The notes below the pieces were generated by a model. The model was not told where the DNA came from. It made no database searches and worked only from the letters and a program-made list of their open reading frames with translations. From contig NZ_JAUYGV010000006.1 of the NCBI RefSeq assembly GCF_030690345.1, forward strand, positions 682,001-746,000: a stretch of 64,000 bases of DNA. The letters run 5' to 3'. Within the stretch, counting starts at the first letter, position 1. The number at the start of each line of letters is the position of its first letter. A program made the translations under genes and the position numbers. Below, piece after piece: positions 45,770 through 50,119 of the stretch. The DNA is from Rheinheimera sp. (GTDB lineage Bacteria > Pseudomonadota > Gammaproteobacteria > Enterobacterales > Alteromonadaceae).

Positions 45770-46744
45770 ATGAAATACTACCTTGGCGCTTATGCCGTTT
45801 CACCCAATCACAGCGGTTGGCAGCCTGAGCTTGAAACTGCGTTTTATAACGAATTAAAAGCGCTGCCGAATATCAAAGGCCTGGAGCATCCGTTTTTAGG
45901 TGCTTTGCACCAGCATGATGACAACTGGTTTTTAGCGAATATTCAGCCGGATTGGGATTATGTGTTTACCTGTATTCCCGGCATTATGAATGCATTGGGG
46001 CAAAATCCGTTATTTGGTATTGCCTCGGATGACGAAGCCGGGCGCCAGGCTGCGCTGGATTTTATGCAGCAGGCCTGTGCTGCTATTGGCAAACTCAACG
46101 CCCATTTGGGCCGGCATGCGGTAACGGCAATTCAAATTCAAACCGCACCGGCACGGCATAAAGCGGCAGCATCTAAAGCCGCCCTTCAAGCTTCGCTTGA
46201 GACTATGTTGCAGTGGGACTGGCACGGCGCCCGGATTGTGATTGAGCACTGTGATGCTTATGTTGATAGCCACACACCGTCAAAGGGCTTTTTAGCGCTT
46301 GGCGATGAGCTTGAGGTAATAACACAGCTAAATACGCAGCTCAGCACAACGCAGCAATTAGGCATAGTGATTAACTGGGGCCGTTCGGTATTTGAAACCC
46401 GCCGTGTTGATGGGGCATTGGAGCATATTCGGGCCGTGCAGGCCGCTGGGGTGTTAAGCGGGCTGATGTTCTCCGGCGTATCTGACCAGCACAGCGAATA
46501 CGGCGCCTGGCGCGACAGCCATCAGCCGCCACAGCAAAGCGCACTGGTACCACATGGTGAGCCCGGCAGTTGGATGACAGAGCAGGCCATGCATAACTGC
46601 CTGGCAGCGTGCGACTCCCCGGAGGCATTATTAGTGTTAGGAGCCAAAATTGGTATCCGGCCACTCAGCGCGTCAGTGGCGCAGCGTATCGCTACTGTCC
46701 GCGATACTCTGGCCATTTTAGATCGATACTTTGCAGCGGTATAA
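45770..46744 (+). CDS. DUF4862-like TIM-barrel protein
   Basis: The 324-residue protein looks like the DUF4862 family, related to xylose-isomerase-like TIM barrels: YYLGAYAVSPN at the start, IKGLEHPFLGALH, FTCIPGIMNALG, the barrel strand ARIVIEHCDAYVDSHTPSKGFL with metal-ligand-like Glu/His/Asp, and a late IGIRPLSASVAQRIATV. A sugar-isomerase or epimerase-type reaction is possible; no substrate is known. An AGGACAAGC sequence precedes the ATG. Confidence 0.65.
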   Translation: MKYYLGAYAVSPNHSGWQPELETAFYNELKALPNIKGLEHPFLGALHQHDDNWFLANIQPDWDYVFTCIPGIMNALGQNPLFGIASDDEAGRQAALDFMQQACAAIGKLNAHLGRHAVTAIQIQTAPARHKAAASKAALQASLETMLQWDWHGARIVIEHCDAYVDSHTPSKGFLALGDELEVITQLNTQLSTTQQLGIVINWGRSVFETRRVDGALEHIRAVQAAGVLSGLMFSGVSDQHSEYGAWRDSHQPPQQSALVPHGEPGSWMTEQAMHNCLAACDSPEALLVLGAKIGIRPLSASVAQRIATVRDTLAILDRYFAAV

Positions 46745-46760
46745 TCAGCCGGTCGCCGTT

Positions 46761-46800
46761 AATCTTTATAAAATCTTTATACTGCAGCGCTAAATCTTTA
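46761..46800 (+). promoter_or_regulatory. Phased AATCTTTA repeats upstream of trkH
   Basis: AATCTTTATA begins at 46761 and again at 46772 (11-bp phase), and AATCTTTA begins at 46793 (21 bp further). The resulting TTTATA-N5-TTTATA layout resembles the T-rich KdpE site of E. coli kdp promoters. A TATACT hexamer (46778-46783) could be a -10. The operon downstream encodes a KdpE-like regulator. Confidence 0.5.
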
Positions 46801-46872
46801 GAAAAGCTTTACAACGGTGCAGGCGGGATAGCGTTAGGCTTGCGCTATCAATCTTTGCTGCAGTATATCCTG

Positions 46873-48357
46873 ATGTCTGGTTATTCTTTTGTGCTTGGCG
46901 ATACGGAAGTTGAAAACAAGCATTTCTTTTACCGCGTAATAGGTTATCTGCTGATTAGCCTGAGCCTGGCGCAGTTTGTCACTATGGCGGTAAGCTTTGC
47001 GCTGCAGGACCGGGCGTTCTGGAACTTTCTGCTGGCGGGAGCCATAACCCTCAGCGCCGGCGGCGTGCTGGTGCTGCGCTCCGGCAGTGCCGTACAGTTG
47101 AAAAAACGTTATCTGTTTTTACTCACCACTTTGTGCTGGTTATCGGTATGTCTGTTCGCTGCCTTGCCGTTTTATCTGAGTGTGCCGGGCCTTAGCGTTA
47201 CCGATGCCTGGTTTGAAACTGTGTCGGCGATTACCACTACCGGCTCTACCGTGTTAAGTGGCCTGGATACCAAGCCAAGGGCCGTGCTGCTGTGGCGGGC
47301 GATACTGCAGTGGATTGGCGGCATTGGTATTATTGTCATGGCCATAGCGATACTGCCGGCGTTGAAAATCGGCGGTATGAAACTGTTTAAAACTGAAAGC
47401 TCGGATATTTCGGAGAAAATACTGCCGCGCAGCAGCAGTTTATCCAGCTCTATTTTAATGGTGTATTTGGGCATCAGCGTGGCGGCGGCTGTCAGCTATT
47501 ATGCCGGTGGTATGTCGTTGTTTGATGCCATCACCCATGCCATGACATCGGCCGCCACCGGCGGTTTTGCCAATTACGATGCGTCCTTTGGCCATTTTAA
47601 CGATAAACCCTGGTTACTCTGGTTCAGCAGTATCTGGATGGCGCTGGCAGCGCTGCCGTTTGTGCTGTTTGTAGGCATGGCACGCGGCGATAAATGGGCA
47701 CTGCTGCGCGACCCTCAGGTAAAAGCCTTTATCGCTGTAGTGTTGGTAGCAGCTTTGCTGCTGGCCGGTTATCAGATAATACATGACGAGCGCGATTGGT
47801 TTTCGGCGCTAACCCACAGTGTGTTTAATGTGGTGTCGGTGATCACCACCTGTGGCTATGCCTCGGAGGATTACACTTTATGGGGCAGCATGGCGGTGGT
47901 GCTGTTTTTTTATCTGACCTTTAGCGGCGGTTGCTCCGGCTCAACCTCAGGCGGGCTGAAAATTTTCCGTACTCAGTTATCCGGCTATATGCTGCTGAAA
48001 CAGCTGAACCTGTTAATTCACCCTAATGCGGTCTGGACGCAAAAATACGGCAATAAAAAAGTCGATGACAGCCTGCTCAGCGCTGTGCTGGCATTTGCGT
48101 TTGTGTATTTTGCTACTATAGCGGCATTGGCATTGGTGTTATCCATGTATAATCTGGATTTTGTGACCGCGTTAACCGGTGCCGCTACGGCGGTAGGTAA
48201 TGTTGGCCCCGGGTTGGGCGATGTCATTGGTCCGGCCGGCAACTTTGCTTCTTTGCCTGATGGTGCAAAATGGTGGCTTACGCTGGGCATGCTGCTGGGC
48301 CGGCTGGAGATCCTGACCATGTTATTACTGTTTACGCCAATGTACTGGCGTTATTAA
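46873..48357 (+). CDS. trkH: TrkH/KtrB-family potassium uptake protein
   Basis: An inner-membrane K+ channel-like transporter of about 494 residues with the four pore-loop repeats: ITTTGSTVLSG, TSAATGGFANYD, ISVITTCGYASEDY and TAVGNVGPGLGD. Their glycines form the selectivity filter. The start at 46873 (MSGYSFVLGDTEVENK) is a compromise: the ATG has a weak ribosome-binding site and the frame stays open upstream without family similarity. No trkA/ktrA regulatory subunit is adjacent. It begins an operon with a KdpD-like kinase 12 bases downstream. Confidence 0.9.
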   Translation: MSGYSFVLGDTEVENKHFFYRVIGYLLISLSLAQFVTMAVSFALQDRAFWNFLLAGAITLSAGGVLVLRSGSAVQLKKRYLFLLTTLCWLSVCLFAALPFYLSVPGLSVTDAWFETVSAITTTGSTVLSGLDTKPRAVLLWRAILQWIGGIGIIVMAIAILPALKIGGMKLFKTESSDISEKILPRSSSLSSSILMVYLGISVAAAVSYYAGGMSLFDAITHAMTSAATGGFANYDASFGHFNDKPWLLWFSSIWMALAALPFVLFVGMARGDKWALLRDPQVKAFIAVVLVAALLLAGYQIIHDERDWFSALTHSVFNVVSVITTCGYASEDYTLWGSMAVVLFFYLTFSGGCSGSTSGGLKIFRTQLSGYMLLKQLNLLIHPNAVWTQKYGNKKVDDSLLSAVLAFAFVYFATIAALALVLSMYNLDFVTALTGAATAVGNVGPGLGDVIGPAGNFASLPDGAKWWLTLGMLLGRLEILTMLLLFTPMYWRY

Positions 48358-48369
48358 GGCCGCTGAACG

Positions 48370-49440
48370 ATGAAACTGACCCACGCCAGACATTTTGCCC
48401 TGTGGCAGCTGTTGCTGCTGGCGCTGGTCGTACCGGTAGTTATTGCGCTGCTGTTGCTGCCGGCCAGAGCGCTGCTTAATACTACCGACGTTGCCATGCT
48501 GCAGTTATTGTGGGTAACCTGGGTGGCGCAACAAGCGGGCCAGCGTTGGGCAGTTATTACTACGGTTAGCAGCGTGCTGTTGCTGAACTGGTTTTTTGTC
48601 ACACCTTATTACACCCTGTATATCCACCATATCGACTATCTGGTTACCTTTATTGTTATGTTGCTGCTTGGCAGTTTTATCGGCCGTTTATCGGGCCGGT
48701 TACGGATTGAGCTGGCGCGGGCAAAAAAGCATATGCGTCAGCGCCAGTTACTGGCCGGCAAAACCCGCCAGGCCAGATTCAGGGCTGAGCTGGAACACAG
48801 CCGCGCTATGCTGTTACGCTCCATTTCGCATGATTTACGCACCCCGCTGGCTACCATTATGGGCGCATCCAGCATGCTGGCCGATAGTGAACTGACATTG
48901 AGCAGCGACGAAATACGCGAGCAGGCGGCTAATATCTACCGTCAGAGCAGCTTGCTGAGCGAACATTTTGACAAGGTAATGGAGCTAAGTCGGGTGCAGC
49001 AGCCACAGCACACTTTGGCCCGTGCTGAGCTGGATGTGGCCGATGTGGTGTCGGCCGCTATCAGCCGCCGCGCACAGTTACTCAGCAATCAGCCGTTACA
49101 AATCCAGCTTAGCAGCAGTGCCCATTGCCTGGCCGACAGCACCCTGCTGGAAATTGCGCTGGCCAATATGCTGGAAAACGCCGTGCGTCATGGCGCAGCG
49201 CCGGTATCGGTAAGTTTTAATCAGGACAACGGCTACTACCATTTGCGTGTCAGCAATGCTATCGCCAGCCACAACAAGGCGCAGCGCGACAGCGGCACCG
49301 GGCTTGGCACCGCCATTTGTAAAGCCGTTATGCAGTTACACGCCGGCCAGTTCAGCCTGCACAGTAGCGATAATCAAACCATGCTGGCGCAACTGCGCTG
49401 GCCGGCAACAACCGATACCGTGGGGCAAAACGTTGGCTGA
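48370..49440 (+). CDS. KdpD-like sensor histidine kinase lacking the N-terminal KdpD/USP module
   Basis: The 356-residue kinase begins with a four-helix DUF4118 membrane domain (about residues 10-110), as in the middle of KdpD, then HisKA with His154 (SISHDLRTPLATI) and an ATPase domain with NMLENAVRHG and DSGTGLGTAI. It lacks the roughly 400-residue cytoplasmic KdpD and universal-stress domains of E. coli KdpD. Its gene sits between trkH and a KdpE-like regulator gene, which it overlaps by 8 bases. It probably senses K+ limitation or turgor. Confidence 0.88.
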   Translation: MKLTHARHFALWQLLLLALVVPVVIALLLLPARALLNTTDVAMLQLLWVTWVAQQAGQRWAVITTVSSVLLLNWFFVTPYYTLYIHHIDYLVTFIVMLLLGSFIGRLSGRLRIELARAKKHMRQRQLLAGKTRQARFRAELEHSRAMLLRSISHDLRTPLATIMGASSMLADSELTLSSDEIREQAANIYRQSSLLSEHFDKVMELSRVQQPQHTLARAELDVADVVSAAISRRAQLLSNQPLQIQLSSSAHCLADSTLLEIALANMLENAVRHGAAPVSVSFNQDNGYYHLRVSNAIASHNKAQRDSGTGLGTAICKAVMQLHAGQFSLHSSDNQTMLAQLRWPATTDTVGQNVG

Positions 49441-50119
49441 AACCATACTGGTGTTAGAAGATGATCCGGCGATGCAAAGCTTTCTCAGCACCTTGCTGAA
49501 AAGCCATCAGCATAAGGTGCTGAGCTTTACCGCCGGTTTGCCGGCCTTGCAATGTTTAGTGACTGAGCCGGCGGAGCTTATTTTGCTTGATTTGGGCCTG
49601 AGCGATATGGACGGTCAGGTCTGGCTGCAGCAGTTGCGTGGCTGGTGTGAGACCCCGGTGATCGTCATATCAGCCCGTCATAGCGAGCAGGATAAAGTGC
49701 AGGCGCTGGATAACGGCGCCAACGACTATGTAACCAAGCCGTTTAGTGCAGCCGAGCTGATGGCCCGCATTCGCGCCAATTTGCGCAAAGTTGCCAGTGC
49801 TCAGCAGGTGTTTGCTTTTGGTGAAGTACAGCTGGACCCGGTCAGCCGCACGGTGCAGCGCGCTGGCCAGCCGGTGCATCTGACCAAAACCGAATATGAC
49901 ATTCTGCTGTTATTGATGCGTCATGCCGACAAAGTACTGACGCATAACCAGATCCTGACTCAGGTATGGGGTAAAACCTACACTGAGCGGCCGGAGTACG
50001 TGCGGGTGCACATGGCACAACTACGGCAGAAACTGGAAGCGAACCCGGCGGCGCCGGCGTTTTTGAAAACTGAACCCGGCGTAGGCTACCGCTTAACCGT
50101 AGCCGCCACCGGGTTGTAG
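49433..50119 (+). CDS. KdpE-like OmpR-family response regulator
   Basis: The start is a TTG at 49433, giving MAETILVLEDDPAMQ, which overlaps the kinase stop; the frame is open further upstream but there it is antisense-like to the kinase. The receiver domain has acidic Asp10/Asp11, phospho-Asp53 (LLDLGLSDMDG) and Lys in VTKPFS. A winged-helix domain ends in FLKTEPGVGYRL, the KdpE-type C-terminus. It probably binds the phased repeats upstream of trkH. Length about 228 residues. Confidence 0.88.
   Translation: MAETILVLEDDPAMQSFLSTLLKSHQHKVLSFTAGLPALQCLVTEPAELILLDLGLSDMDGQVWLQQLRGWCETPVIVISARHSEQDKVQALDNGANDYVTKPFSAAELMARIRANLRKVASAQQVFAFGEVQLDPVSRTVQRAGQPVHLTKTEYDILLLLMRHADKVLTHNQILTQVWGKTYTERPEYVRVHMAQLRQKLEANPAAPAFLKTEPGVGYRLTVAATGL

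Follow-up and report, generated by a model that had tools for sequence, protein, structure and literature searches.

Background

Does a KdpD/KdpE-like regulatory pair encoded next to a trkH gene control that gene, as its namesakes control the Kdp pump? The question is raised by a locus of Rheinheimera sp. (assembly GCF_030690345.1, contig NZ_JAUYGV010000006.1, positions 682,001 to 746,000), a stretch of 64,000 nucleotides (nt) referred to here as the window, in which trkH, encoding a potassium (K+) uptake subunit, is followed by genes for a short KdpD-like sensor kinase and a KdpE-like response regulator (Table 1). According to the available part of PMC11018627, KdpD phosphorylates KdpE at low K+ and kdpFABC is activated; the N-terminal domain of KdpD is a serine kinase inhibiting the pump subunit KdpB, while external K+ is sensed in the membrane part and internal K+ in the GAF domain. 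Trk is described as constitutively expressed (PMC3610689, from the portion available).

A preliminary description of the window had suggested a self-regulated K+ uptake module, presumed to be of low affinity, and our analysis favours the same answer with a probability of roughly 70%: the three genes appear to form a self-contained, self-regulated K+ uptake operon in which Kdp-type control has been placed on a Trk transporter. We favour it because the upstream repeats match the KdpE site and track the linked kinase, and because KdpA and the KdpD N-terminal domain are unmatched in the genome.

Operon proteins and upstream sites

The gene junctions are not quite as first described: the regulator frame overlaps the kinase frame by 8 nt as claimed, whereas trkH and the kinase gene are separated by a 12-nt spacer. 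The window's TrkH is 93-94% identical over the best segment to the TrkH of Rheinheimera lutimaris and R. baltica and matches PF02386 with 200.2 bits (cut-off 27). It stays under the NCBIfam cut-offs of NF008020 (297.6 vs 866 bits) and TIGR00933 (292.5 vs 331 bits) and is, by these profiles, a member of the wider family outside the TrkH equivalog.

The short kinase carries DUF4118 (PF13493, 76.5 bits against a cut-off of 28.4) and a HisKA and HATPase_c core. These are its only Pfam domains, and no match to KdpD (PF02702), Usp or GAF was found in its 356 amino acids (aa) at E-values up to 0.001, which bears out the earlier statement that the N-terminal KdpD/USP module is absent. The regulator has KdpE (NF007820, 203.1 bits) as its best NCBIfam model and E. 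coli KdpE (4kny) as its closest solved structure, and it aligns with E. coli KdpE at both arginines of the recognition helix and at the wing threonine that the available part of PMC3264566 names. Catalytic motifs are intact in both proteins, which fall outside the KdpD and KdpE equivalog families, yet look built to work like KdpD and KdpE. A GAF domain in the longer linked kinases of other loci (L079, L068, L105), suggested by position alone, was discarded, with no Pfam match at E-values up to 0.01.

Upstream of trkH, the 11-bp-phased repeats agree in both sequence and spacing with the KdpE site published for E. coli, TTTATA and TTTACA as 6-bp direct repeats 5 bp apart (PMC3264566). The TTTATA-N5-TTTATA pair and the third copy noticed earlier are real, and a fourth half-site (46808) was found in addition. 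Upstream of kdpF in E. coli K-12 we read TTTATA-N5-TTTACA-N15-TTTGCG-N5-TTTGCA, with offsets 0/11/32/43 as at the window's trkH; the available text of PMC3264566 describes the first pair, and the third and fourth half-sites are our own reading.

Conservation of the sites and the linked kinase

As the motif was picked after viewing the window, conservation across genomes is the stronger evidence. The window's four-site score was reached by none of 100 dinucleotide shuffles of its 300-bp upstream region, and with up to two mismatches the four-site pattern occurs once in the 4.35-Mb genome, at the trkH promoter and with 0 mismatches; the reversed control also gave one match. Five of nine other genomes (G400, G384, G349, G249, G321) have the pattern, with no more than one mismatch, at a linked trkH promoter. 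It was not found, allowing two mismatches, in G052 (linked), at the linked trkH of G391, or in G210 and G281, where no kinase-linked trkH was found either; the same nine genomes hold two further matches elsewhere, with 2 mismatches each (G249, G391).

A broader comparison covered 80 loci from named genomes, gathered with an alignment of linked TrkH. The kinase lies directly downstream of trkH in 32 and is missing there in 47, and one locus was dropped because its trkH is cut (L122). The regulator is also present in the linked loci except L107, which reaches a contig end. A pair scoring at least 9/10 within 300 bp upstream was present at 31/33 linked trkH genes (window included) vs 1/47 unlinked ones, and a four-site score of at least 17/20 at 15/33 vs 0/47. 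The sole unlinked exception (L166 3670-6795) has a trkH that belongs to the linked kind but is truncated; recombinase-like and other genes come after it, and the upstream box remains. It is probably an operon broken by an insertion with its promoter retained. When 11 loci from the window's lineage are aligned without gaps, 34/49 columns are invariant in the site vs 7/111 outside. The first pair served as the alignment anchor, forcing 18 columns; the second pair was not used as an anchor, and its conservation is given in Table 1. Four genomes with the linked operon also have a second TrkH (L037-L040), 68-69% identical to the window's and lacking both linked kinase and boxes.

Potassium transporters of the genome and the proposed mechanism

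The window's assembly comprises 4.35 Mb in ten contigs. When kdpFABC was sought elsewhere in it, neither KdpA (PF03814) nor the KdpD N-terminal domain (PF02702) had a match in the whole genome; the same models matched in 5/14 and 6/14 control genomes, respectively. Kup was also unmatched in the window's genome. A second TrkH, 39% identical to the window's, adjoins a TrkA (two TrkA_N matches) on contig C4, and there are two other TrkA_N matches in the genome, one of them below the cut-off.

The following mechanism would fit these genes. Low external K+ would be sensed by the short kinase through its DUF4118 membrane domain, and when K+ is scarce the kinase would phosphorylate the KdpE-like regulator. 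The phosphorylated regulator is predicted to bind both 11-bp-phased pairs (46765-46813) and to activate trkH together with both regulatory genes, and TrkH may then work with the housekeeping TrkA encoded elsewhere. There would be no KdpB to restrain, which fits the missing N-terminal serine-kinase domain, and since GAF, the reported internal K+ sensor, is missing too, the kinase is predicted to read external K+ only.

Relatives and their kdp clusters

The linked operon was found in 17 of 246 family genomes; the remaining 229 were judged by their best TrkH matches, part of which were read for the kinase. KdpA is present in 8/17 linked-operon genomes vs 5/229 others, a comparison given no P value because the genomes are related. 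Three relatives, R. hassiensis, R. pacifica and a metagenome-assembled genome (MAG), have a kdpE-kdpD-...-kdpC-kdpB-kdpA cluster that runs convergently towards the trkH operon and encodes a KdpD of 885 aa (domains checked in one); they hold a full-length KdpD/KdpE plus the short pair. The two regulators of each genome, kdp-linked and trkH-linked, fall in separate tree branches. Pairs at their kdp promoters read TTTACG or TTTATG, and those at their trkH promoters TTTATA. A specificity code of TTTATA against TTTACG was rejected: the recognition helices of the two kinds of regulator differ in Rheinheimera, but in family f196 the regulators linked to trkH are similar to the kdp-linked type.

At four loci, ktrB-ktrA is divergent from trkH with phased boxes between (L087 3798-6001, L074 42-2247, L076 255-2460, L106 3755-5962); the shared intergenic region is a possible two-way promoter. 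ktrA and ktrB do not lie across the box region in the window. Between kdpC and kdpD, one locus has a Gcw_chp (PF09694) gene (L074 8858-9616), and the genes so placed in the remaining Rheinheimera kdp loci that were read have similar N-termini.

Points against the reading and alternative explanations

Several results weigh against a self-regulated Trk operon. Genome-wide, TTTANA-N5-TTTANA has 17 matches vs 19 for the reversed control, and the single 11-bp pair, not being above chance, was therefore rejected as proof of a site, which leaves the four-site layout and conservation as the basis of the case. The four-site score is below 17 in 18/33 linked loci, mostly of a second Rheinheimera lineage, and two linked loci (L112, L116) have weak pairs of 8/10. 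The short kinase is far below the NCBIfam KdpD equivalog NF007793 (110.7 vs 1123 bits), and the regulator is below the KdpE equivalog cut-off (203.1 vs 325 bits). Finally, a sigma70-like promoter upstream of the boxes would permit repression.

Among the alternatives, the architecture may be right and the signal other than K+, namely osmolarity, Na+, pH or membrane state. A kinase without the KdpD, Usp and GAF parts would suit such a signal, and K+ sensing by DUF4118 alone was not met in the portions of the literature examined. We consider this unlikely: a K+ transporter is nearby in 20/33 short or mid-sized kinase loci (see below), and the available text of PMC11018627 assigns external K+ sensing by E. 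coli KdpD to the membrane part. K+ is probably the operon's signal.

The regulator could also repress, with the sigma70-like promoter driving the operon and the boxes, downstream of its start, serving as a block when K+ is plentiful. This promoter (TTTAGA-17-TATAAT, 46717-46745) has 10/12 consensus matches, overlaps the end of the upstream gene and lies just upstream of the boxes. Set against this, the region scan gave 2 promoter-like sites, fewer than the shuffles (mean 3.7). The 10 related loci aligned do not preserve TATAAT; they do largely preserve a stretch ending TAGGCT, which is the best conserved part on the downstream side of the boxes and might contain the -10 element. E. coli KdpE moreover activates through the same site form (PMC11018627, part available), and repression seems a poor prospect.

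A further possibility is that a lost kdpFABC-kdpDE cluster left the short pair behind, now decaying and next to trkH by chance. This is very improbable, although KdpA is unmatched in the window's own genome and R. hassiensis, R. pacifica and the MAG have a kdp cluster adjoining the trkH operon: in these relatives full-length and short pairs coexist with regulators that branch apart, catalytic motifs and sites are conserved, and the tree does not place the short pair within neighbouring kdp-linked copies. Because of this coexistence and separate branching, the idea that the short pair degenerated from the adjacent kdp genes was likewise rejected.

Short kinases beyond Rheinheimera

Models of the short kinase were run on 369 genomes of the class and 398 of the phylum. 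The sample is based on all 27 phylum matches, among the matches listed, whose open frame does not exceed 600 residues; of these, 24 were newly read, G790 is locus L204, and the window's own genome and G052 were already included elsewhere. With five frames of 640-700 residues, two short class matches and the order-level G085 added, this gave 33 loci, excluding the window's genome and G052; most of them come from other families. In 20 of the loci, TrkH, KtrB or Kup is nearby: TrkH at 52-56% identity in 4, Kup in 8, KtrB in 4 and a distant TrkH (30-33%) in 4, which leaves 13 with none. KdpA was found in 0/33 and KdpB at 58% or more in 0/33, several of the stretches being cut by contig ends. Full-length KdpD loci (14 hand-chosen controls) have KdpA and KdpB in 13/14 and, within the stretch read, Trk, Ktr or Kup in none. 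One short KdpDE-like pair precedes an amino-acid-permease-family protein (PF13520), with no Trk, Ktr or Kup (L239 2539-6794).

Strict upstream pairs beyond nearly all of 200 shuffles were found at L204 (trkH-kinase-regulator-trkA), L202 (kinase-regulator-kup) and L262 (trkH-kinase-regulator), where 0 shuffles reached the score, and at L207 (ktrAB-kinase-regulator), where 2 did. A strict pair at every short-kinase locus was rejected, as most Kup loci fail this test. The strict score was reached by 119 shuffles at L203, 89 at L242, 81 at L244, 179 at L252 and 98 at L259, and by 43 at L238, 26 at L266, 12 at L263 and 10 at L237. With a relaxed half-site, the best mean score beyond the first pair, on its downstream side, falls at offset 43 in kdp promoters, the window's trkH lineage, the Kup group and L207, the lead being small in the Kup group (6.0 vs 5.8 and 5.4); it peaks at offset 36 in the second Rheinheimera lineage and at 29 in family f196. 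Three Kup promoters (L242 8607, L244 8563, L252 3101) have TTGATA/CTGATA-like half-sites near 0/11/32/43, with strict tests within chance.

The maximum-likelihood tree of 36 regulators groups those of Rheinheimera-lineage trkH with the ktrAB-linked G085 regulator (support 100/98) and places the f196 trkH regulators elsewhere, near kdp-linked ones. The trkH label changes twice, and because well-supported branches force two changes, the coupling to trkH, by this tree, arose at least twice, or is old and was lost and regained.

Kdp-type promoter control might be a portable cassette, in which short kinases that lack the serine-kinase domain aimed at KdpB were coupled repeatedly, along with KdpE-like partners, to TrkH, KtrAB and Kup behind Kdp-type phased boxes. 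It would make usually constitutive transporters K+-inducible, also without a Kdp pump, with box divergence (TTTATA for trkH, TTTACG for kdp) separating the switches where both exist. We offer this generalization tentatively, at somewhat less than even odds, and it is tempered by the Kup loci, most of which do not pass the strict test of their promoters.

Features of the locus

Table 1. Coordinates in the window of the trkH operon and its upstream elements.
Feature	Position	Strand	Basis
trkH, K+ uptake channel-transporter subunit, 494 aa, start (ATG) uncertain	46873-48357	+	PF02386
KdpD-like sensor kinase, 356 aa, DUF4118-HisKA-HATPase_c, SHDLRTPL H-box	48370-49440	+	Pfam
KdpE-like response regulator, TTG start, receiver and winged-helix DNA-binding domain	49433-50119	+	PF00072, PF00486
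First half-site pair, TTTATA-N5-TTTATA, offsets 0 and 11 (TTTATA 46765-46770, TTTATA 46776-46781), proposed regulator site	46765-46781	+	E. coli KdpE site form
Second half-site pair, TTTAGA-N5-TTTACA, offsets 32 and 43 (TTTAGA 46797-46802, TTTACA 46808-46813)	46797-46813	+	9/12 half-site columns invariant in 11 related loci
CGTTAGGCT stretch, shared by most of the 11 related loci; may be a -10 region	46832-46840	+	

A gene of 324 aa (45770-46744) lies directly upstream of the window's trkH.

Significance and comparison with known systems

If the reading is true, K+-responsive transcription extends wider than Kdp. The natural absence of the serine-kinase and GAF parts would offer a clean test of which part of KdpD senses what, and the Rheinheimera species with both a trkH and a kdp switch could be used to test how paralogous regulators avoid acting on each other's targets. 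The survey of KdpD in 5,495 species was, by the available part of PMC11018627, confined to those with an annotated Kdp pump, and a module like the window's would therefore fall outside it.

The module resembles E. coli KdpD/KdpE-kdpFABC in its DUF4118 kinase core, its KdpE-like regulator and the phased pairs at 0/11/32/43 upstream of K+ uptake genes. It differs in that the target is trkH and not the pump, that the kinase has no match to the serine-kinase domain, Usp or GAF, and that KdpA is unmatched in the genome. The split KdpD, with a KdpD/Usp serine kinase and a separate transmembrane/GAF/histidine kinase protein (PMC11018627, part available), is alike in that the window's kinase polypeptide also lacks the KdpD/Usp part; in the split form that part is a separate protein in Kdp-pump species, whereas the window's genome has no PF02702 or KdpA match. 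With housekeeping TrkH-TrkA, the window's TrkH shares the transporter family (PF02386); unlike housekeeping TrkH, it is under the TrkH model cut-offs, is only 39% identical to the genome's other TrkH and has its own regulatory pair.

No trkH-kdpDE operon was described in the titles or abstract openings of the literature searched. The nearest parallel is the kdpD1-kdpE1-kupA operon stated for Azotobacter in the available part of PMC4465626, in which, going by the operon description, a KdpDE-like pair is likewise co-transcribed with a non-Kdp K+ transporter; there the transporter is Kup and is placed last, and a binding site is not described in that part of the source. Going by that description, an operon joining a KdpDE-like pair to a non-Kdp importer is already in print, and the window's operon joins such a pair to trkH.

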